A stretch of 64,000 nt of DNA from Ornithinimicrobium flavum (lineage in GTDB: Bacteria > Actinomycetota > Actinomycetes > Actinomycetales > Dermatophilaceae): the NCBI RefSeq assembly GCF_004526345.1, contig NZ_CP038213.1, positions 3,410,001 through 3,474,000 of the forward strand. The letters run 5' to 3'. Shown in pieces: positions 11,729-21,419 of this stretch. The position numbers and the translations under genes were made by a program. The notes beneath the pieces are model-generated. The model worked only from the letters and a program-made list of their open reading frames with translations. It was not told the DNA's origin and ran no database searches. The first letter of the stretch is position 1. Each line of letters opens with the position of its first letter.

Positions 11729-14188
11729 CTAGGCCGTCGCCAATCCCTCCGCCGGGCTGACCCGCACCGCCCGCCTGGCCGGCAGCACGCTGGCCAGGAC
11801 CCCGGCGAGCAGAGCCACCCCGACGATGACCGCCACCCGGCCCCACGGCACGGCGAGCTGCACGCCGACGTCGGCGGGCAGGAGGGTCTGGACGCCGAGC
11901 GCGGCATACCCGAGCCCCAGGCCCAGACCGATCACGGCGCTGACCAGCGCCAGCAGGACCCCCTCGACCAGCAGCATCGAGCGCATCTGGCCCCGGGTCA
12001 GGCCCAGGCCGCGCAGGAGGGCGTGCTCGCGGTGCCGCTCCAGCACCGACAGCGACAGGGTGTTGGCGATGCCGACGACCGCGATGAGCACCGCCACGCC
12101 CAGCAGGGCCGTGGTGACCAGCACCATCACGTCGAGGACCTGGGTGATGACCGCCCGCTCGGCGGCCGATCCGGTCACCTGGAGCGCGTTGTCGTCCGCC
12201 ACGTCAGAGACCGCACCCATGGTGTCGGCCACGTCCGCGTCGTCGGCCAGCCGGACGAGGGCGGTCCCGGGGGTGACCGCGTCGCCACCGAGCGCCCTCA
12301 GGTCCTCGACGTGCACGGCCAGGTCGTAGCCGAGCGCGAACGGCACCACCTCCAGCTCGGCGCTGCCACCCGGCCCCGAGACCGCCACCCGGTCTCCGGG
12401 CTCCAGCTCGTAGATGGACATCATCCCGCCCGCCATCCCGAGCGTCCCCGGCACCAGAGAGGCCAGCTGCTCGGCGCCGCGCACCACGTCCGCGTCCCGG
12501 GCCGGGTCGAGGCCGACGGTGGCGGTGCCGCCACCCATGTCCTCACCGAGGGTCAGGTAGGCCGTGTCCGCCACCCGCACCGCGCTCACCCCGTCGACCC
12601 CGCCGACCCGACCGGCGAAGTCGGCGGGCAGGGGGAGCGCGTCCACGCGGTCGGTGCCGTCCTCGAGGTACTCGCCGCCGGCGGAGAGCACGAGGTCGAC
12701 GGAGTAGGACTCGTCGATCTCGCCCATGGCGGTGCGCTGGCCGGTCGCCGCCCCGACGGAGGTCATGGTGATGAGGGTGACGCCCACGACCAGGGCGGCG
12801 CTGGTCGCGGCCGCCCGGCCGGGGTTGCGGACGGCGTTGTCGACGGCCAGGCGCCCCGGGACCCCGGCCGGGCGGGCGCCCAGACCGAGGGCCCGCACGG
12901 CGAGCGGCACGACCACGACCGCGGCGACGAGGACGCCGAGGAAGGAGACGACGCCGCCGAGCACCCCGCTGAGGATGTCCCGGGAGGTGGCGGCGTGGAC
13001 CATGGCGGCCACGCCGGCGCCGACGAGCAGCACGGCCAGGGCCATCCGGACCCGGCTCACCCGCACCCGCTCTCCGGAGGGCCCGACCGGGCGCAGGGCC
13101 GCCAGCGGGGACACCCGGGTGGCCCGCACCGCCGGCCACAGGCTGGCCAGAACGGTCACGAGCAGCCCGACGAGCAGGGGCGCACCGAGCACCACGGGCG
13201 TCACGGCGAGCCCCTCCGGCAGCGGCAGCCCCAGGTCCAGGCGCCGGCCCAGGGCCAGCAGGCCGAGAGCCGTGAGCAGGCCCGCACCGAGCCCCACGAC
13301 GGAGGCGACCAGCCCGAGGACCACGGCCTCCAGGATGACCAGGGACCGCACCTGGTGGGTCGTCGCGCCGACGGCACGCAGCAGCGCCAGCTCGGAGGTG
13401 CGCTGGGCCAGGGTGATGGTGAAGGTGTTGGCGATGACGATCGCCGCCGTGAGCAGCGCGACCGCACCGAAGCCCAGCAGGACGGCCCCGATGACGTCGG
13501 TCCCGCCGGTCATCATCGCCACCCGCTCGGCCGCCGCCTCGGTGCCGGTGCGGAGCTCGGCGCCGGGCACCGCGGCCAGCAGCGCCTCCCGTGCCGCGGT
13601 CTCGTCCGCGCCGTCGACCAGGTCCACCATCACCGAACCGTAGGACAGCTGCGGGTCCACCTGCCGCAGCGTGGCGTCGTCGGCCGCGAAGGCCGGTCCG
13701 TAGGACAGCGCCGGGCTGATGTCGCCGAAGTCGGCCACCCCGACGACGTCGAGGGACACCCCGCCCAGGTCGACCTGCTCGCCGACCGCCACCTCCTCGG
13801 CGAGGGCCGGGTTGACGGCGATCTCCCCGGGCGCGGCGGGCATCCGGCCCTCCAGCAGGGTGGTGCCCGAGACCGGGACCGGTGCCCCGATGAGCCAGGT
13901 CTGCGCGGTGAGCTCGGCGCTGACGGCGGTCTCGCCCCGCAGGGAGGCGACGTCCGCCACGGCGAGGGCGGCGTCGTAGCCCTGCGTCGAGATGCCCTCG
14001 CCGTCGACGGTGAGGACGAGGTCGGCGTCCCGCACGCCGGCGGCGACCGCGTCCTCCATACCCCGTTGGGCGGTGGTGAGCAGGGCCAGGCTGGCGGCGA
14101 GGAAGGCGACGCCCAGGACGATGGCGACCGCGGCCGAGAGCAGCCGGCGCCCGCGCGAGGCCAGGCCGGCGGTCCGCCAGGTGCCCAT
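11729..14188 (-). CDS. ABC transporter permease, MacB/FtsX family
   Basis: An 819-residue permease with the duplicated FtsX layout: an N-terminal helix (LSAAVAIVLGVAFLAASLAL), a large extracytoplasmic domain, three helices around residues 260-370 (first FtsX domain), a second helix and extracytoplasmic domain, and a final three-helix FtsX domain with VGIANTLSLSVLERHREHAL. Such permeases pair with a LolD/MacB-type ATPase and move peptides, antibiotics or lipids, or act mechanically, rather than import. The start overlaps the stop of the ATPase gene by one base, so the two are translationally coupled. Substrate unknown; control by the neighbouring two-component system is likely from a shared operator. 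Confidence 0.9.
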   Translation of the reverse strand: MGTWRTAGLASRGRRLLSAAVAIVLGVAFLAASLALLTTAQRGMEDAVAAGVRDADLVLTVDGEGISTQGYDAALAVADVASLRGETAVSAELTAQTWLIGAPVPVSGTTLLEGRMPAAPGEIAVNPALAEEVAVGEQVDLGGVSLDVVGVADFGDISPALSYGPAFAADDATLRQVDPQLSYGSVMVDLVDGADETAAREALLAAVPGAELRTGTEAAAERVAMMTGGTDVIGAVLLGFGAVALLTAAIVIANTFTITLAQRTSELALLRAVGATTHQVRSLVILEAVVLGLVASVVGLGAGLLTALGLLALGRRLDLGLPLPEGLAVTPVVLGAPLLVGLLVTVLASLWPAVRATRVSPLAALRPVGPSGERVRVSRVRMALAVLLVGAGVAAMVHAATSRDILSGVLGGVVSFLGVLVAAVVVVPLAVRALGLGARPAGVPGRLAVDNAVRNPGRAAATSAALVVGVTLITMTSVGAATGQRTAMGEIDESYSVDLVLSAGGEYLEDGTDRVDALPLPADFAGRVGGVDGVSAVRVADTAYLTLGEDMGGGTATVGLDPARDADVVRGAEQLASLVPGTLGMAGGMMSIYELEPGDRVAVSGPGGSAELEVVPFALGYDLAVHVEDLRALGGDAVTPGTALVRLADDADVADTMGAVSDVADDNALQVTGSAAERAVITQVLDVMVLVTTALLGVAVLIAVVGIANTLSLSVLERHREHALLRGLGLTRGQMRSMLLVEGVLLALVSAVIGLGLGLGYAALGVQTLLPADVGVQLAVPWGRVAVIVGVALLAGVLASVLPARRAVRVSPAEGLATA

Positions 14189-14958
14189 CAGGCCCTCCCG
14201 AGGTCGCGCACGGCGGCGAGCACGGCGTCGACCTCAGGGTCGAGGATCTCCCCGGCGACCTGCCCGTCGGCGAGGAGGATGACGCGGTCCGCGATCGCCG
14301 CGGCGTTGGCGTCGTGGGTGACCATGACGACGGTCTGGCCCCACTCGTCCACCGAGCGGCGCAGCAGGGTCAGCACCTCCACCCCGGTCGTGGAGTCCAG
14401 CGCACCCGTCGGCTCGTCGGCGAAGATCACCTCGGGCCGGGTGACGAGGGCGCGGGCCAGGGCGACGCGCTGCTGCTGCCCCCCGGACAGCTCACCGGGG
14501 CGGTGGCCCAGCCGGTCGGCCAGGCCCAGCCCCTCGACGACCAGCTGCTCCCAGTCAGGGTCCGCGGCGCGACCGGCGAGGTCCAGCGGCAGCCGGATGT
14601 TCTGGCGGGCGGTCAGGGTGGGCAGCAGGTTGAACGCCTGGAAGACGAAGCCGACCGAGCGGCGGCGCACCCGGGTCAGCTGGCGGTCCGACAGCGAGGT
14701 GAGCTCGGTGTCGCCGAGGAAGACGCGTCCGGAGGTGGGAGTGTCCAGCCCGGCGAGCAGGTGCATGAGGGTGGACTTGCCGGACCCGCTCGGGCCCATG
14801 ATGGCCGTGAAGCGGCCGGTCTCGATCCCCACCGAGATCTCCCGCAGGGCGTGGACGGCCGTCTCCCCCCGGCCGTAGGTCTTGGTCAGGTCGAGGGCGC
14901 TCGCGGCGAGCGAGGCGGTGGCTCGGGCGGTGTCGCGCCCTGAGGTCGTTGTTGTCAT
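14188..14958 (-). CDS. ABC transporter ATP-binding protein, MacB/LolD type
   Basis: A 256-residue ATPase with Walker A GPSGSGKS, Q-loop FQAFNLLPTLTARQN, signature LSGGQQQRVALARAL, Walker B VIFADEPTGALDS and H-loop MVTHD. The FQAFNLLP and GALDS wording is typical of the MacB/LolD/FtsE subgroup that works with FtsX permeases. The mRNA looks leaderless, with TACCGT 7 nt before ATG 14958. A palindrome shared with the two-component operon lies 68 bp upstream of the start. Together with the permease it probably forms an exporter that responds to envelope stress or a peptide; the substrate cannot be read from sequence. Confidence 0.93.
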   Translation of the reverse strand: MTTTTSGRDTARATASLAASALDLTKTYGRGETAVHALREISVGIETGRFTAIMGPSGSGKSTLMHLLAGLDTPTSGRVFLGDTELTSLSDRQLTRVRRRSVGFVFQAFNLLPTLTARQNIRLPLDLAGRAADPDWEQLVVEGLGLADRLGHRPGELSGGQQQRVALARALVTRPEVIFADEPTGALDSTTGVEVLTLLRRSVDEWGQTVVMVTHDANAAAIADRVILLADGQVAGEILDPEVDAVLAAVRDLGRA

Positions 14959-14965
14959 GCCGGCG

Positions 14966-14971
14966 ACGGTA
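14966..14971 (-). promoter_or_regulatory. Candidate -10 (TACCGT) for the leaderless ABC exporter operon
   Basis: TACCGT on the minus strand ends 7 nt before ATG 14958. The shared palindrome at 15026-15043 would sit just upstream of the -35 region. Confidence 0.45.
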
Positions 14972-15025
14972 GGCGGGGTCGGCCGCCGGGGGCATCAGCC
15001 GACGGGCGGGAGCTGCGGGCTCCCG

Positions 15026-15043
15026 GTCAGACCCGGGTATGAC
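15026..15043. promoter_or_regulatory. Palindromic operator, copy 1 (ABC exporter)
   Basis: GTCAGACCCGGGTATGAC is a near-perfect dyad (8-bp arms, one mismatch) whose proximal edge is 68 bp from the ATPase start. The same element, GTCATACCGGGGTATGAC, lies 67 bp from the histidine-kinase start at 18157-18174. Inferred binding site of the response regulator encoded at 16001-16732. Confidence 0.65.
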
Positions 15044-15075
15044 GTCCGCCGTCGGCAGGCTCCGTCGCCGGGGGT

Positions 15076-15108
15076 GGGTCGGTCGACGGGGCGGGTCGGT
15101 CGACGGGG
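15076..15108. repeat. 17-bp direct repeat downstream of the SMR genes
   Basis: GGGTCGGTCGACGGGG occurs twice, 17 bp apart, just after the second SMR stop. A 15-base part recurs inside the hairpin at 58639-58676, so it may be a terminator-associated word. Confidence 0.45.
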
Positions 15109-15109
15109 G

Positions 15110-15442
15110 TCAGTCGGCGGCGGGGGTGCGCGTCGTGAGCTTGAGCCCGGCCGCGCACGCGATGATCCCGAGCAGGAAGAGCGCCTTGAGCGGGGTCAGC
15201 ACCTCGGTGCCGGTGACCACCGCCCAGAGCACGGTGAGGACGGCGCCCAGCCCGGTCCAGACGGCATACGCCGTGCCGATGGGGATCGAGCGCATCGCCT
15301 GCGCCAGCCCGACCAGGCTGAGGACGCAGAACACGAGGAAGACGACGGTGGGGACGGGGCGGGTGAGGCCGTCGGAGAACCCCAGCGCGGTCGCCCAGAC
15401 CGCCTCGAGCACCGCGCTGCCGAGCAGGATCGCCCACGCCAC
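15110..15442 (-). CDS. SMR-family efflux protein, second subunit (guanidinium exporter pair)
   Basis: A 110-residue four-helix small multidrug resistance protein. It starts at GTG 15442, one base after the stop of the partner gene, so the two are translationally coupled. The N-terminus AWAILLGSAVLEAVWATALG keeps the essential membrane Glu (about residue 13) and Trp of the SMR family; later segments SIPIGTAYAVWTGLGAVLTVL and LFLLGIIACAAGLKL complete the fold. Two adjacent non-identical SMR genes usually encode a heterodimeric pump. The guanidine-III riboswitch upstream of the pair makes guanidinium the most likely substrate. Confidence 0.88.
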   Translation of the reverse strand: MAWAILLGSAVLEAVWATALGFSDGLTRPVPTVVFLVFCVLSLVGLAQAMRSIPIGTAYAVWTGLGAVLTVLWAVVTGTEVLTPLKALFLLGIIACAAGLKLTTRTPAAD

Positions 15443-15443
15443 C

Positions 15444-15758
15444 TCAGGACACCACCTTGAGGCCGACCACGCAGCCGACGATCCCGAGGAGGAGCAGCAC
15501 GCGCACGAGGGTGGCCGGCTCGGTGCCGCGCGCCATCGCCCAGGCGACGGTGAGCGATGCGCCGGTAGCGGTCCACACGGCATACGCCGTGCCGGTCGGG
15601 ATCGTCTGCATGGCGACGGCCAGGCCCCACATGCTGAGCACGGAGGCGACGACGAAGACGAGGGTGGGCAGCGGGCGGCGCAGTCCGCGGGAGGCGCCGA
15701 GCGCGGTGGCCCACACGGCCTCCAGGACGCCCGAGGCGAGCAGGATGGCCCAGTCCAT
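15444..15758 (-). CDS. SMR-family efflux protein, first subunit (guanidinium exporter pair)
   Basis: A 104-residue four-helix SMR protein (DWAILLASGVLEAVWATALG, with the conserved Glu at residue 13; TIPTGTAYAVWTATGASLTV; LLLLGIVGCVVGLKVVS). ATG 15758 is preceded by an AAGGAG ribosome binding site, unlike the leaderless genes around it, which fits control through the 5' leader. The leader contains a guanidine-III riboswitch whose 3' edge is 35 nt from the start. With the downstream gene it should form a heterodimeric exporter that removes guanidinium using the proton gradient. Confidence 0.9.
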   Translation of the reverse strand: MDWAILLASGVLEAVWATALGASRGLRRPLPTLVFVVASVLSMWGLAVAMQTIPTGTAYAVWTATGASLTVAWAMARGTEPATLVRVLLLLGIVGCVVGLKVVS

Positions 15759-15793
15759 GGGGATGGCTCCTTGACGAGGTGGTCGGCAGGGGT

Positions 15794-15833
15794 GGCCAGT
15801 CTTGTCCTCACCGGGTACTGAACCGTCGTCCGG
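15794..15833 (-). ncRNA. Guanidine-III (ykkC-III) riboswitch
   Basis: Read on the minus strand the leader starts CCGGACGA, continues through a short variable part, and contains GTACCCGGTGAGGACAAGAC before GGCC. This matches the compact pseudoknot consensus of the ykkC-III class: CCGGACGAGG, then GUACCCGGUCAGGACAAGAC. Ligand-binding core bases ACCCGG and GGACAAGAC are intact. It lies directly upstream of the SMR pair, the usual target of this class, and the RBS is 25-30 nt downstream, so translational control is plausible. Recognised from memory of the consensus, not from a covariance-model search. Confidence 0.88.
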
Positions 15834-15870
15834 GGCGTCGGGGCGCCGGTCCCCAGGGTAGCAACGCGGC

Positions 15871-16021
15871 AGGAACGCGCGTCCGGTCTGTCAGGAACTC
15901 GCGTCCGGTCTGTCACGAACTCGCGTCCGGTCTGTCAGGAACTCGCGTCCGGTCTGTCAGGAACTCGCGTCCGGTCTGTCACGAACGCGCGTCCGGTCTG
16001 TCAGGAACCCGCGTCCGGTCC
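15871..16021 (-). repeat. Tandem array of a 22-bp repeat, locus 1 (seven units, last partial)
   Basis: Units start at 15871, 15893, 15915, 15937, 15959, 15981 and 16003 with an exact 22-bp period. On the plus strand each begins AGGAAC or ACGAAC, continues YCGCGTCCGG and ends TCTGTC. There are no spacers. The last unit encodes the final residues and stop of the response regulator (PDAGS, stop). The same family occurs at 33728-33837 and 43639-43817. Confidence 0.95.
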
Positions 16022-16732
16022 TCCTTCGGGGCGGCCGGCGAGGCCCGTCTCGTAGGCGGTGATGACCATGTGGACGCGGTCGCGCAGGCCGAGCTTGCTC
16101 AGGACGCGCCCGATGTGGGTCTTGACCGTGGCCTCGGCGAGGAAGAGCTCGGCGGCGATCTCGCCGTTGGTCAGCCCCCGGCCGACCGCCTCCAGGACCT
16201 CGCGCTCGCGCTCGGTGAGCGGACCCAGCCGCGCCGCGGCCAGCCGACGCCGGGCGACGGCCGCGCTCTCCGCCCCGGCCTCGGGCAGCTCGGGCACGAA
16301 GCGCTCGAGCATCCGCCGGGTCGTGGAGGGCGCCATCGCCGCGTCGCCCGCGTGCACGGCGCGGATCGCCGAGAGCAGCTCGGCGGGGCCGGCGTCCTTG
16401 AGCAGGAATCCCGAGGCGCCGGCCTTGAGGGCGGCGAAGACGTACTCGTCCAGGTCGAAGGTCGTCAGCACCAGCACCTTCGCGGGCGACCCTGCGGCCT
16501 GCAGGCGACGGGTGGTCTCGACCCCGTCCAGCCGCGGCATGCGGATGTCCATGAGCACCACGTCGGGCCGGGTGGCCTCGATCGCGGCGAGGGCGGCGAG
16601 CCCGTCCCCCGCCTCCCCCAGGACGGTCATGTCCGGCTGGGCGTCCAGCACCATCCGGAAGCCGGCCCGCACGAGCTCCTGGTCGTCGACGAGGAAGAGG
16701 CGGACGGGCCGGTCGTCGGGGTGGGTGGTCAC
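16001..16732 (-). CDS. NarL/FixJ-family response regulator
   Basis: A 243-residue regulator. The receiver domain has VDDQELVRAGF, the phospho-acceptor Asp in DVVLMDIRMP near residue 60, the switch Thr in VLVLTTFD and Lys in LLKDAG. The C-terminal LuxR-type helix-turn-helix reads LTEREREVLEAVGRGL then NGEIAAELFLAEATVKTHIG. GTG 16732 overlaps the stop of the kinase gene (GTGA). The last residues GPDAGS and the stop are encoded by a unit of the 22-bp repeat array, so the tail is probably repeat-derived. Likely targets are its own operon and the ABC exporter, because both carry the same palindrome. Confidence 0.93.
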   Translation of the reverse strand: MTTHPDDRPVRLFLVDDQELVRAGFRMVLDAQPDMTVLGEAGDGLAALAAIEATRPDVVLMDIRMPRLDGVETTRRLQAAGSPAKVLVLTTFDLDEYVFAALKAGASGFLLKDAGPAELLSAIRAVHAGDAAMAPSTTRRMLERFVPELPEAGAESAAVARRRLAAARLGPLTEREREVLEAVGRGLTNGEIAAELFLAEATVKTHIGRVLSKLGLRDRVHMVITAYETGLAGRPEGGPDAGS

Positions 16733-18090
16733 GGCTGGGCTCCTTGCGTCCGGTCGGTCGAGGGTATGCCGTCCCCGGCCGGGGGAGGGCGGTCCCCCGG
16801 CACGGTGTCCGGACCCAGCACCGGGATCGTCGCCACGACCTCCCAGCCCTCCCGGGGCCGGGGGCCGGCCTGCACGTGCCCGCCGAGCACCTCGACCCGC
16901 TCGGCCATCCCGAGGATGCCGTTGCCCTCCCCGTCGGAGTCCGGGGACAGCCCCTGCCCGTCGTCGGTGACCCGGACCAGGAGCACGGCCGGGGTGCGCA
17001 GGACGTCGACGTCGACCTGCGCCTTCGGGCCCGCGTGCTTGAGCGCGTTGGTGAGCGCCTCCTGCACGACCCGGTAGGCGGCGAGGTCGACCTCGGAGGG
17101 CAGGTCGTCGGTGCGGCCCCGCACGGCCAGGTGGACCGGCAGGCCCGACTCGCGGACGCCGTCGACGAGCTCCTCCAGGTGGGCCAGGCCGCGCAGGGGC
17201 GCGTACTCGGCCCCGGCCCCCTCCTCGCGCAGCACCCCCACCAGCTTGCGGGTCTCGGCGAGCGAGGACCGGGCCGTCTGGGCCAGGGTCTCGAGCGTGG
17301 AGGCCGCGTGCTCCAGGGCCGCCCGGTCCGGCCCGATCGCCGGGGGCCGGTCCAGGGCCGCCCGGGCGGCGTAGAGCGCACCGTCGGCCTGGACCACCAC
17401 CACCGCGAGGCTGTGCGCCACCACGTCGTGCATCTCCCGGGCGATGGAGGCGCGCTCGTCCTGGGCCGCCAGCCGGGTGCGCTGCGCGTGGTCGCGGGCC
17501 AGCGCCCGGTTCTGCTCCCGGAGCCGCTCGATCACGGCGTGACGCCGTCGGACCACGTCCCCCAGCACCCACGCCACCCCGACGAAGAGCCCGAGGAAGA
17601 TCGCGTTGATGAGGATGCCCGCGAGGTCCCAGCGCCCGTCGTACCGCAGCCGCCAGTCCAGGCTCGCGAGCAGCGCCCCGCCCAGCGCGAGCCCGAGCAC
17701 CAGCCGTGAGGTCCGGCGGTCGCCGAACGCCGCCGCGCTGTAGACGACGACCAGCACCGCGATGTTGGCCGGGTGCGGCTCGTCGGTGAGGAGGACCTGC
17801 AGCAGGCACCCGGCCGCGACGATGCCCGCCACCAGGAGGGGACGGGCCCGGCGCCAGGGCAGCGGCAGGACCTGGACCATCCCGATCAGCACCCCGAAGG
17901 GCCCCAGCGCCGCGCCGCCCACCACGCCGACGAGCACCGCCAGCCCGATGACCAGGACCTCCAGCCACCACGGGCCGGACCGCCCGGTCCGCACCGACAG
18001 CTCCTGCCAGGCCTCCCGCACCGCCTCGCGGGTCGCCCCCGCGCTCCGGATGGAGGACGGGTCGGGGGCGGGTCTGCGGTCGGGCGTCAC
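16729..18090 (-). CDS. Sensor histidine kinase, NarL-partner (HisKA_3) type
   Basis: A 453-residue membrane kinase. The N-terminal half has about five hydrophobic segments (LEVLVIGLAVLVGVVGGAAL, PLLVAGIVAAGCLLQVLL, IAVLVVVYSAAAFG, LVLGLALGGALLASL, GILINAIFLGLFVGVAWVL) with little outside the membrane, a layout used by intramembrane-sensing kinases of ABC-exporter systems. The HisKA_3 phosphorylation site is in ERASIAREMHDVVAHSLAVV; the ATPase part has VVQEALTNALKHA, DDGQG and GNGILGMAER. Start GTG 18090 is supported by a TATCGT -10 eight bases upstream. It is co-transcribed with the response regulator and divergent from the glycosyltransferases. Confidence 0.92.
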   Translation of the reverse strand: MTPDRRPAPDPSSIRSAGATREAVREAWQELSVRTGRSGPWWLEVLVIGLAVLVGVVGGAALGPFGVLIGMVQVLPLPWRRARPLLVAGIVAAGCLLQVLLTDEPHPANIAVLVVVYSAAAFGDRRTSRLVLGLALGGALLASLDWRLRYDGRWDLAGILINAIFLGLFVGVAWVLGDVVRRRHAVIERLREQNRALARDHAQRTRLAAQDERASIAREMHDVVAHSLAVVVVQADGALYAARAALDRPPAIGPDRAALEHAASTLETLAQTARSSLAETRKLVGVLREEGAGAEYAPLRGLAHLEELVDGVRESGLPVHLAVRGRTDDLPSEVDLAAYRVVQEALTNALKHAGPKAQVDVDVLRTPAVLLVRVTDDGQGLSPDSDGEGNGILGMAERVEVLGGHVQAGPRPREGWEVVATIPVLGPDTVPGDRPPPAGDGIPSTDRTQGAQP

Positions 18091-18098
18091 ACCGGTCG

Positions 18099-18104
18099 AC
18101 GATA
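18099..18104 (-). promoter_or_regulatory. Candidate -10 (TATCGT) for the leaderless kinase operon
   Basis: TATCGT on the minus strand ends 8 nt before GTG 18090. The palindrome at 18157-18174 lies just upstream of the -35 position. Confidence 0.45.
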
Positions 18105-18156
18105 GGCGGCGGCGCCAGCGGTCGCATCCACCTGCGGGAGCGCGCGGCGGGCCTGC

Positions 18157-18174
18157 GTCATACCGGGGTATGAC
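18157..18174. promoter_or_regulatory. Palindromic operator, copy 2 (two-component operon)
   Basis: GTCATACCGGGGTATGAC has perfect 8-bp arms around two bases. It is 67 bp upstream of the kinase start, matching the 68 bp of the copy before the ABC exporter. It also lies upstream of the divergent glycosyltransferase promoter (-35 at 18203), so it could influence both directions. Confidence 0.7.
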
Positions 18175-18237: not shown

Positions 18238-20112
18238 ATGATCGCCACCGCCGTAGGGACCCGTGACGCGCTCGACCAGGTGGCGACGGCGCCGACCATC
18301 CTGGACGCGGTGGACCGGTTCGACAGCGTCGCCCGGGCCGCCCGCCAGGACGGGGCGGCCTCCCAGGCGCTCCTGCGTGATGGGATCGCCGACCCGGGCG
18401 ACCCCCTGGTGGCCCTGGCCGCGGTGCACGCAGCCGGCGCCGTCGGGGGCACCGTGGCCGAGGACCTCCTCGTCGACCTCCTGCGCTCCGGACCACCCCT
18501 GCTGCGGGAGCACGCCGCCTGGGCGCTGTCGGCCGGCCCGCTCCTGGAGGCCGCGCTCGACCCGTTGCGCGCGATGGCCCGGGAGGGCGACTTCGCCGGG
18601 GTGCTCGCCGGCGTCACGCTGGGGACCTGGCGCGCCACGACCCCGGACGCTCCTCCCGCACCCAGGCCGTCCCCGCGCCCGCGAACGACGTCCGGGCTCA
18701 CCGTCGCCCAGCTCTACCTCCACGGCGAGATCGACGCCGAGCTGCGGCACGCAGGCCGGGGCGACACCGGCGGCATCGCCACCCTGTTGGTGCGGCTCGG
18801 CGACGCGCTGCTGCAGGAGCCGGGCGTGGGCCGCGTCCTCACCCTCTCGCGGGCCTCACGGGCGGGCGACTCCGGCCAGGTCCCGCCGGACCGGCTCGAG
18901 GAGGTCGCGGCCTCGCCCGGGCACCACTACCTCGGCATCCCCGTCCCCCGTCCGGCGCCTCCCCTGAGCCGCAGCTGGCCGCTCCTCCCGCTCGTCCGCG
19001 AGAGCCTGCGCCAGCAGCTCGCCCTGGCCGGCCCGGTCGACGTGGTCCACGTCCGTATGGCGGACGTCGGCACCTGGGCGGTCGCCCAGGTGGCTCGGGA
19101 GCTCGGCATCCCTCTGGTCCTCACGCTCGCCCCGGACCCGCACGCCCTGCTGGCCGTGCGGGAGCGGACCGGGCGGCTCACCCGGGCCACCTTCGCCGAG
19201 GCCGACCTGCAGGAGCATCTCGTCTTCCGCATCCGCCTGCTGCGGGCCCTCCGGGAGCAGGCCGAGGCCCTGGTCGTCTTCCCCCGCCCGGACCTGCAGC
19301 GGGACCTGTCCACGCTGCTGCACGTGGGGCCGGACGAGCCCATGCACGTCGTCCCCGAGGGGGTCGACCTGAAGGCCCTGGACCACGCCGACCGGCAGGT
19401 GGCCCTGGCCCTGGAGGGTGGCGAGGCCGAGCCCGGCGTGGCCGCGGCGCTCGGTGAGCTGGACGCGCTGCTGGCCGGGCTGCCCGAGGAGCGGCGGGGG
19501 CTGCCCGTGGTGCTGAGCGTCGGGCGGCTGCACGCGGTCAAGGGCATGGCGACCCTGGCGCAAGCCTGGGCCGAGCACCCCGACCTGGCCCAGCGGTGCA
19601 ACCTGGTGATCGTCGGCGGCGACCTCGAGGACCCCTCCCACGAGGAGGCCGAGCAACTCGCCCGGATCGGTGAGGCCGTGGACCGGGCGCAGGGTCCCGG
19701 GCAGGGTGTGCTCCTGGCCGGCAACCGGCCCAACTCGACGGTCGCTGCGTGGCTCTCGGCCGTCCGGCGGGGCCGGCCCGGGCTCAGCGCCGCCGGTGGC
19801 GTCTACGCGTGCGCGAGCCTCAAGGAGGAGTTCGGCATCGCGCTGTGCGAGGCCCTGGGGTCCGGGCTGGTCGTCGTCGCGCCGGGGCACGGTGGCCCGC
19901 CCACCTACGTGGAGGACGGCCGCACCGGGGTCCTGGTGGACACTTCGGACCCCGGTCTGCTGGGGGAGGCGGTCGCAGAGGCCCTGAGGCTCGCGGCGTC
20001 CGACGACGCCGACGAGCGTGCCGCGCACGCACGGCAGGTCGTCCTCGACCGGTTCAGCATCCGCACCATGGCCGCCGCCCTGGCGGACGTCTACCGGGGG
20101 GTGGCCGGGTGA
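18238..20112 (+). CDS. GT4-family glycosyltransferase with N-terminal helical-repeat domain
   Basis: A 624-residue protein. Residues 1-130 are Ala/Leu-rich helices resembling HEAT/PBS-lyase-type repeats (DPLVALAAVHAAGAVGG, LLREHAAWALS). A Pro-rich linker near residues 138-150 leads to a GT-B glycosyltransferase: DVVHVRMADVGTWAVAQVAR, LTLAPDPHALL, then VVLSVGRLHAVKGMATL and EEFGIALCEALGSG, the EX7E-type GT4 signature. The retaining GT4 enzymes use nucleotide sugars at the inner membrane face or in the cytoplasm. The stop overlaps the start of a GT1-type gene (GTGA). Acceptor and donor cannot be deduced. Confidence 0.85.
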   Translation: MIATAVGTRDALDQVATAPTILDAVDRFDSVARAARQDGAASQALLRDGIADPGDPLVALAAVHAAGAVGGTVAEDLLVDLLRSGPPLLREHAAWALSAGPLLEAALDPLRAMAREGDFAGVLAGVTLGTWRATTPDAPPAPRPSPRPRTTSGLTVAQLYLHGEIDAELRHAGRGDTGGIATLLVRLGDALLQEPGVGRVLTLSRASRAGDSGQVPPDRLEEVAASPGHHYLGIPVPRPAPPLSRSWPLLPLVRESLRQQLALAGPVDVVHVRMADVGTWAVAQVARELGIPLVLTLAPDPHALLAVRERTGRLTRATFAEADLQEHLVFRIRLLRALREQAEALVVFPRPDLQRDLSTLLHVGPDEPMHVVPEGVDLKALDHADRQVALALEGGEAEPGVAAALGELDALLAGLPEERRGLPVVLSVGRLHAVKGMATLAQAWAEHPDLAQRCNLVIVGGDLEDPSHEEAEQLARIGEAVDRAQGPGQGVLLAGNRPNSTVAAWLSAVRRGRPGLSAAGGVYACASLKEEFGIALCEALGSGLVVVAPGHGGPPTYVEDGRTGVLVDTSDPGLLGEAVAEALRLAASDDADERAAHARQVVLDRFSIRTMAAALADVYRGVAG

Positions 20113-21419
20113 CCCTCCTCGTGGTCTCCCCCGACTACGCCTCCCACCTCTATCCCCTGGCGACGCTGGCGACGGCGTGGCGCGACGCCGGGGAGCGGGT
20201 GGTCGTGGCCACCGGACCGGCCACCGACGCGCTCGTGCGCGGGTTCGGGATGGAGCGCGTGGACCTGCGTCTCGGGCGAGGCTCCAACCCCGGTGTGATC
20301 CGTCCCGAGGACCAGCCGCGCGGCGAGGACGACGCCCTGCGCGGCTTCTTCGCGGCCACCCGCCAGGGGGCCGTGCAGACCCTCGAGTTCCAGGCGCGAG
20401 CGCGGCTGGACGACCTGCTCTGGGACCCGCTGACGACCGCCCGGCGGGTGCAGGAGGTCGTCGACCGGGTGCGCCCCGACCAGGTGATCGTCGACCACCT
20501 GGCCTTCAGCGCCCGGCTGGCTCTCACCGCGGCGGGCGTGCCGCACGCCGACGTCGTGCTGGGCCACCCCTCGGCCCTGGTGGTGGGGGACGAGGTCTAC
20601 GGCCTGCCGCCCGCCTGGCCGCAGCGGCTGCGACCGCCCCAGGAGCGGCTGGACTCCCTGCGCGCCCTGTGCGAGCAGGTCCGCGACCGCTTCACCAGCG
20701 ACTGGAACACCGCGCTGGCGACCCTCGACCCGGGTGCTGTCCCGAGCGCGGACGCCTTCGCCGAGACCGGTGACGTGCTGCTGCTCAACTACCCCGCGGC
20801 GCTCCACCCCCCGGCGCGCACCCGGCTGCTGGGCGCGCACGCCTTCCTCGGGTCGGCGGTGCGGGAGGAGGCGGTCGACGCGGAGGTGCAGGCGTGGTTG
20901 TCCGCCGACGACCTGCCGGTGGTCTACGTCAGCCTGGGCAGCTTCCTGTCCGTGCGCTCGGACGTGCTCGCCCGGGTCGCCGAGGCCCTGCGGGGGCTCG
21001 ACGTGCGGGTGGCGATGGCCACGGGCAGCACCCCGGCCGACCAGCTCGGCCCGGTGCCGTCCAGCTGGCTGCTCCGCCCCGTGCTGCCGCAGGTGACGCT
21101 GCTGCGGCACGCGGCCCTGACCGTGACCCACGGCGGCAACAACAGCGTGACCGAGGCTCTCACCGCGGGCGTCCCGCTCCTGGTGCTGCCGTTGTCCACC
21201 GACCAGTTCGCCGGGGCCGCCGCCCTGGAGACGACCGGCGTCGGGGCGGCGCTCGACCCCAACGACGCCTCCCCCGAGGAGTTGCGCGCCGCCGCCCGGC
21301 AGCTGCTCGCCTTGCCGTCCGGGCCGGTGGCCCTGCTGGCCGGGCTCGCGGACGACCTGCGGCGCGAGCCGGGTCCGCAGCGCGCCCGGGCCGCCCTGGT
21401 CGGCCCCGGGGCGCTCTGA
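20109..21419 (+). CDS. GT1-family (MGT-like) glycosyltransferase
   Basis: A 436-residue inverting GT-B enzyme similar to macrolide/UGT-type glycosyltransferases. The N-terminal acceptor domain starts LLVVSPDYASHLYPLATLA; the C-terminal nucleotide-sugar domain has PVVYVSLGSFLSVRSDVL and VTHGGNNSVTEALTAGVP, the family donor signature. GTG 20109 overlaps the stop of the GT4 gene. Two coupled glycosyltransferases suggest stepwise building of one glycoconjugate, but no biosynthetic cluster surrounds them. Confidence 0.88.
   Translation: MTLLVVSPDYASHLYPLATLATAWRDAGERVVVATGPATDALVRGFGMERVDLRLGRGSNPGVIRPEDQPRGEDDALRGFFAATRQGAVQTLEFQARARLDDLLWDPLTTARRVQEVVDRVRPDQVIVDHLAFSARLALTAAGVPHADVVLGHPSALVVGDEVYGLPPAWPQRLRPPQERLDSLRALCEQVRDRFTSDWNTALATLDPGAVPSADAFAETGDVLLLNYPAALHPPARTRLLGAHAFLGSAVREEAVDAEVQAWLSADDLPVVYVSLGSFLSVRSDVLARVAEALRGLDVRVAMATGSTPADQLGPVPSSWLLRPVLPQVTLLRHAALTVTHGGNNSVTEALTAGVPLLVLPLSTDQFAGAAALETTGVGAALDPNDASPEELRAAARQLLALPSGPVALLAGLADDLRREPGPQRARAALVGPGAL

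Follow-up and report, generated by a model that had tools for sequence, protein, structure and literature searches.

Paired palindromes before a NarL-family two-component operon and a duplicated FtsX-type ABC exporter in Ornithinimicrobium flavum: a putative autoregulated circuit

Among characterised circuits, the nearest to the locus described here is ChrSA-HrtBA of Corynebacterium glutamicum, in which HrtB is a short, single-unit permease. The kinase of this system lacks large extracellular loops, and its regulator activates both its own operon and an adjacent ATP-binding cassette (ABC) exporter (PMC6850329, PMC5812335). ChrA does so from a single site, activating chrSA as well as the divergently oriented exporter genes hrtBA (PMC6850329). 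A comparable arrangement occurs in Ornithinimicrobium flavum, on a stretch of 64,000 nucleotides (contig NZ_CP038213.1, positions 3,410,001 to 3,474,000; hereafter the window), where a histidine kinase, a response regulator and an ABC exporter are encoded on one strand, and where a palindrome lies before both the kinase and the exporter. From sequence comparison, and with a probability that we put at about 80%, we propose that the NarL-family regulator (VraR/ChrA-like) activates its own operon and the exporter, which has a duplicated FtsX-type permease, through these palindromes.

Like ChrSA-HrtBA, the module combines a kinase of this kind with a regulator that has ChrA as its second-best solved relative. 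Unlike HrtB, the permease is a duplicated protein of 819 amino acids with two FtsX regions; nothing here points to haem; and each promoter has its own dyads, unlike the one site between divergent operons described for ChrSA-HrtBA (PMC6850329). By analogy, the module would belong to the general kind of ChrSA-HrtBA, without being that system. The VraSR and LiaSR envelope-stress systems of Firmicutes offer a second comparison: among solved structures VraR is closest to the regulator, and a HisKA_3 kinase with little extracellular sequence is shared. The operators of these systems differ from the dyads here, nothing at this locus marks cell-wall drugs as the signal, and no LiaF/VraT-like gene was found among the eight neighbouring genes scanned, unlike in LiaFSR and VraTSR. 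In the peptide-antibiotic detoxification modules BceRS-BceAB, an ABC ATPase and a large FtsX-type permease likewise accompany a two-component system whose kinase has no sensor domain. However, BceR is OmpR-type and BceB has one large extracellular domain, whereas the regulator here is NarL-type and the permease has two long inter-helix segments. Finally, MacRS of Streptomyces coelicolor is, like the present pair, an actinobacterial NarL-type system; it has an established binding consensus, and its targets are membrane proteins and lipoproteins with a presumed role in morphogenesis (PMC9739842), whereas the kinase here scores only 24 bits with the MacS family model, against a cut-off of 300.

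The kinase-side palindrome, GTCATACCCCGGTATGAC, lies 67 bp 5' of the GTG of the histidine kinase (18090), and the exporter-side palindrome, GTCATACCCGGGTCTGAC, 68 bp 5' of the ATG of the ABC ATPase (14958), as an earlier note made from the sequence alone had correctly given, coordinates included. All eight arm pairs match at 18157-18174, and seven of eight at 15026-15043 (Table 1). Both starts do look leaderless, as that note had it (TATCGT-N8-GTG for the kinase, TACCGT-N7-ATG for the ATPase), although its placement of the dyads just upstream of -35 needs correction, since they begin at -84/-85, approximately 32 bp upstream of the expected -35 position. The note had also seen no other such dyad in the window, and this holds at up to three mismatches: the two palindromes, which count as four strand matches given the nearly palindromic pattern, are the only sites (0.55 matches expected; four reached in 2 of 100 shuffles). 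The genome search that it had proposed gave a similar picture, with only the two sites at the module promoters lying within two mismatches of GTCATACCNNGGTATGAC in 3.71 Mb. At three mismatches there are three further sites, all within predicted genes, and a reversed-pattern control gives one. Text searches of the open-access literature with GTCATACC and GGTATGAC, judged by titles and the starts of abstracts, returned no description of the operator, and those for two-component systems and ABC transporters in Ornithinimicrobium returned unrelated papers only. We give almost no credence to the idea that the palindromes are non-regulatory, whether as terminator hairpins or by chance: palindromes this short occur often, and the exporter site follows the second of two small multidrug resistance (SMR) genes at a distance of 67 bp, but neither palindrome is followed by a run of T, the kinase site is flanked by divergent genes and so could serve as terminator of neither, and the exporter site is conserved in both position and sequence. 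Terminators and chance were rejected on these grounds.

Conservation was assessed over 28 loci, comprising the window, 25 congeners and two loci from other genera (L052, L054); on the stretch compared, L192 lacks the ATPase and L183 the kinase. The earlier note had held that absence of the dyad from orthologous promoters would count against its proposal. It is not absent: 25 of 27 orthologous ATPase promoters retain it with up to four mismatches. Furthermore, 26 of the 27 fit the leaderless pattern of TAnnnT, seven bases and ATG (a spacer of 6 to 8 bases was allowed), the exception being L054. Among these 26 anchored promoters, 24 carry the dyad, compared to 1.4% of 10,400 random 138-bp windows drawn from the same loci, a figure that overstates chance given that the random windows include the module promoters. 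The start of the dyad in the anchored promoters falls into one of two ranges, -84 to -87 and -107 to -109. The two promoters without it are those of L052, from another genus, and of L193 (G155). In the latter, the ATPase is followed by a gene of opposite orientation and no permease match was obtained in the genome, so that operator and exporter may decay together. With the exception of L193, the dyad stays with the ATPase even where some 1 to 4 kb of other DNA splits it from the regulator. The regulator-operator pair, the autoregulation and the exporter control that the earlier note predicted appear well supported by comparison, and better so at the exporter promoter than at the kinase promoter.

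At the kinase promoters of L176 and L177 the perfect dyad is also found. Alignment of the -86 class (15 ATPase promoters) on the ATG brings out the distal dyad, the -10 element and a further conserved block, roughly AGGTCnCGACCnGnGGnnGAnG, between about -56 and -35. A weight matrix built solely from the distal sites of ATPase promoters was then applied to both promoter sets. At the kinase promoters (23 of 25 anchored), the top gap between match and -10 element is 22 bp (z 5.4), followed by 44, 21 and 33 bp; at the ATPase promoters it is 55 bp, which represents the training sites, and next 22 bp (z 3.9). Two kinase promoters (L185, L190) have no assignable -10 element and do not enter this averaged profile. 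Gaps assigned to the proximal element promoter by promoter were searched only at about 20-24 bp and so are no evidence alone, in contrast to the averaged profile and the scan of other genera given below. Within the genus, distal and proximal dyads of kinase promoters are 22-23 bp apart in 13 of 23 cases and 31-34 bp apart in the other 10, several of the dyads being low-scoring. The window's own promoters combine a strong distal with a weak proximal element, the two being 31 bp apart at the kinase, and most relatives have a better-scoring proximal element at the same place in their kinase promoters. In L050 (G127), the kinase operator seems to have been lost. The DNA upstream of that kinase is unlike that of other loci and, by eye, looks like a partial transposase gene.

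Beyond the genus, 62 genomes of other genera have a kinase match, and we compared the loci of 22 of these besides that of L052 (14 genera; kinases 44-51% identical). A scan of the full upstream regions with the relaxed motif GTCANACCNNGGTNTGAC located the best dyad 21-22 bp upstream of the -10 element in 18 of 22 kinase promoters, and 16 of the 22 match with no more than three mismatches, compared to 7.4% of random stretches. The motif had been picked after three of the 22 loci matched it, while the 21-22 bp place was not preselected on that basis. With 11 anchors, one of them positive, a control at -10-like sequences is too small to weigh. At ATPase promoters, the dyad GTACGACCnnGGTCGTAG, or a form one base off, occurs in 8 of 11 cases (L028-L032, L034, L035, L041), and poorer dyads are found in L027, L037 and L040. 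The motif thus seems to drift (GGTATGAC, GGTCTGAC, GGTCGTAG) while its place persists. A search for homologs outside the family covered 80 loci with a regulator relative, of which only L065 (Ornithinimicrobium sp. F0845) has the dyad at up to two mismatches, and seven have three-mismatch sites, some of them away from the promoters of interest. Most Streptomyces loci with a regulator about 60% identical gave no ABC ATPase or permease match. GTAGTACCCGGGTACGAC precedes an ABC gene in three Streptomyces loci, as does GTAGTACCCAGGTATCAC in L115. In a further seven loci, where an ATPase of 59-67% identity adjoins the regulator, no match below five mismatches was obtained; L127 has the variant dyad CTACGACCACGGTCGCAG.

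Regulator and exporter are inherited jointly. Within the genus, 26 of the 31 genomes (counting the window's) encode a regulator ortholog (at least 75% identity), and 25 of these 26 also have a permease ortholog, while the five genomes without the regulator are without the permease as well. Among these five, G139 has only a 35% identical relative, and completeness is only about 75% for G159 and G164. Sites at up to two mismatches number 50, in 23 of the 31 genomes, compared to 4 for the reversed pattern, and 17 of them lie at this module.

Several observations weigh against the proposed circuit. Kinase promoters keep the GTCATACCnnGGTATGAC form (up to four mismatches) in only 11 of 27 loci, the rest having 5 or 6 mismatches; two anchored kinase promoters, L050 and L054, were dropped from the averaged profile after they were seen to have no recognisable dyad; and the proximal element at the window's kinase promoter scores poorly (-1.7). 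The promoters of relatives are, moreover, non-independent samples. In the other genera, the relaxed motif is found (up to three mismatches) at only 2 of 11 ATPase promoters, compared to 5% of random stretches, distal-proximal spacings of 42-57 bp in some exporter promoters run contrary to strict phasing, and the variant dyad GTACGACCnnGGTCGTAG coincides in part with the final codons and stop of the regulator gene; coding constraint may therefore explain part of its conservation. Of the genus-wide sites, 33 of 50 lie off this module; the contexts obtained for 24 of these are inside genes (8), intergenic (11) or uncallable (5), the simple gene finder used having failed on two genomes. Dyads of the same type are also found beside further kinase systems that have different ABC ATPases (L221-L223, L060), where a paralogous regulator could read them.

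Because of the kinase-promoter counts and the coding overlap of the variant exporter dyad, we graded our proposal slightly lower, and raised the alternative that one or more different paralogous NarL-family regulators bind the dyads, so that the adjacent pair would be only one among several that share a family of operators, with cross-talk. This alternative nonetheless remains improbable in our judgement. The same genome does encode two paralogs of the regulator (54 and 59% identical), and the motif recurs at other kinase-ABC loci in genus and family. For example, the 18-mer GGCATACCAAGGTATGAC or its complement recurs off the module in six genomes, and lies between two divergent genes in the three examined (L221-L223; G150, G152, G159); the L221 genes read, from their proteins, as a kinase of the same type and a CcmA-like ABC ATPase, so that L221-L223 perhaps represent a sister circuit whose operator is related. 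Across the family, a site at up to one mismatch is present in 12 of 149 genomes, and in three besides the window's genome (G019, G090, G133) it is within 1 kb of a kinase match. Yet the only two sites of the window's genome sit at this module, no motif-like dyad of at least seven pairs occurs within 150 bp upstream of any called gene at the loci of the two paralogs, and sites, regulator and exporter are inherited together. On this pattern of occurrence, the operator type is common to related exporter-linked systems and exclusive to the module only in the window's genome.

What the comparison establishes is where the sites are and how they sit with respect to the -10 elements, that they are conserved, and that regulator and exporter are inherited jointly. 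For the proposed circuit, we infer that the adjacent regulator is the binding protein, that its binding activates, and that it binds cooperatively. The kinase would phosphorylate the regulator encoded at 16001-16732, which would then bind as dimers at the two distal dyads. Distal binding would help it to occupy the weaker dyad 21-22 bp upstream of the -10 element, standing in for a -35 element, and RNA polymerase would thereby be recruited to the two leaderless promoters, of the kinase-regulator operon and of the ABC exporter, resulting in positive autoregulation and exporter induction. A proximal element that overlaps the -35 position could place a bound protein where it blocks polymerase, in which case the site would be a repressor's operator. 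We consider this slightly less probable still than a paralogous reader, given that no -35 consensus is seen there in these GC-rich promoters, that the 21-22 bp spacing to the -10 element suits recruitment, and that the analogous ChrA activates both of its promoters from one site (PMC6850329).

More speculatively, and at odds that we rate somewhat short of even for the combination as a whole, the activation circuit may be one instance of a family-wide promoter code for exporter-linked NarL systems. In such a code, a weak dyad 21-22 bp upstream of a leaderless -10 element would replace the -35 element, and a strong dyad further upstream, which in the genus stands at about 22, 33 or 55 bp (whole helical turns), would set the threshold. 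The distal dyad would be strong before the exporter and of varying strength at the autoregulated promoter, and paralogous kinase-ABC pairs would read variants of the half-site, such that specificity would reside in a few half-site bases.

The regulator falls in the NarL/LuxR family, with Pfam matches to Response_reg (93.7 bits) and GerE (65.9 bits) that both exceed their cut-offs, and its closest solved structures are, in order, VraR, ChrA, DevR and NarL. Hydropathy places the membrane segments of the kinase within residues 38-182 and reveals no long loop, bearing out the claim that it is nearly without an extracellular domain. The earlier note associated this layout with sensing through or with the exporter. 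However, ChrS and HrrS, also kinases without extensive loops, have been proposed to sense haem within the membrane (PMC5812335), and sensing through the exporter is therefore not the sole option. In the permease, the two long inter-helix segments span approximately residues 43-222 and 484-677 by hydropathy, and the solved relatives (the 5xu1 permease, MacB, YtrF and LolC/F) match its FtsX parts only. The description of the exporter as MacB-like is thus loosely apt for those FtsX parts, but goes no further: the permease is duplicated, ATPase and permease are separate genes rather than one fused chain as in MacB, and with the MacB family model they score 203.5 and 40.6 bits respectively, against a cut-off of 966.

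The dyad at 18157-18174 also lies 64 bp before the start of a divergent pair of glycosyltransferase genes, which could, if served by the same site, extend the circuit to a three-operon regulon. We regard this third target, suggested earlier on account of the shared intergenic region, as possible but rather unlikely. In its favour, the pair also adjoins the kinase in G160, where the glycosyltransferase promoter has a three-mismatch dyad and a half-site near -35. Conversely, the first gene of the pair is unmatched in 27 of the 31 genus genomes and adjoins the kinase in only two of the four that have it; the copies elsewhere, in G166 and G157, have no dyad below seven mismatches in the 250 bp upstream of their estimated starts; and the window's glycosyltransferase promoter has, by eye, its own -35-like TTGGAC. 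Between 18190 and 18240 this promoter is also AT-richer over a stretch, TTTGACACAAGTTGGACAAAGATTGG, that contrasts with the GC-rich promoters of kinase and exporter and is possibly the site of another regulator.

On the minus strand, the gene order is kinase, response regulator, a 22-bp tandem repeat, a guanidine-III riboswitch with two SMR genes, ABC ATPase and permease (Table 1). The repeat (15870-16020, 6.9 copies) lies immediately behind the regulator gene, and in L048 and L051 the same gap holds, by eye, different repeats, resembling an insertion hot spot. The riboswitch (Rfam RF01763; 47.5 bits, gathering score 36) is situated just upstream of the SMR genes. Such riboswitches are known mainly from Actinobacteria, and SMR proteins linked to them are guanidine exporters (PMC12186494); the SMR pair here is probably a two-subunit guanidinium exporter. 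In seven congener loci (L175-L178, L180-L182) an SMR pair lies between regulator and ATPase, with a riboswitch above threshold in six of the seven (not L175), and the riboswitch is absent from both scanned loci without the pair. Because SMR pair and riboswitch are present in some loci while the dyad stays with the ATPase, the guanidine cassette looks like a separate unit under its own RNA control. The earlier note, which did not mention the cassette, read the region as one module, and this needs correction. Its label of a resistance module is unsupported, and the only transporter here with a readable substrate belongs to that cassette.

Table 1 Coordinates, in the window, of the features of the putative operator circuit and its neighbours
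Feature	Position	Strand	Remarks
Distal operator (putative), kinase-regulator promoter	18157..18174	.	Perfect dyad GTCATACC-CC-GGTATGAC as read on the minus strand
Weak proximal operator-like element GCGCTCCCGCAGGTGGAT, kinase promoter	18126..18143	-	21 bp upstream of the -10 element, at the -35 place
-10 element TATCGT, leaderless kinase promoter	18099..18104	-	
Histidine kinase, GTG start	16729..18090	-	DUF7134 membrane domain, HisKA_3, HATPase_c
NarL/LuxR-family response regulator	16001..16732	-	Response_reg, GerE; 4-bp overlap with the kinase gene
Guanidine-III riboswitch	15791..15853	-	Cassette between regulator and exporter, outside the operator circuit
Two SMR transporter genes	15444-15758, 15110-15442	-	Follow the riboswitch
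Distal operator (putative), exporter promoter	15026..15043	.	GTCATACC-CG-GGTCTGAC as read on the minus strand
Weak proximal operator-like element TCCCGCCCGTCGGCTGAT, exporter promoter	14994..15011	-	22 bp upstream of the -10 element, at the -35 position
-10 element TACCGT, leaderless exporter promoter	14966..14971	-	
Exporter ABC ATPase	14188..14958	-	
Duplicated FtsX-type permease, 819 aa	11729..14188	-	
Divergent glycosyltransferase pair	18238-20112, 20109-21419	+	Candidate third target

The operator stays with the exporter promoter while cassettes, such as the guanidine exporter under its riboswitch here, intervene in some species only. A widely conserved, uncharacterised actinobacterial kinase-regulator-exporter module becomes a directly testable circuit with named operators, and its half-site motif might allow regulators of the large NarL group to be assigned their targets.

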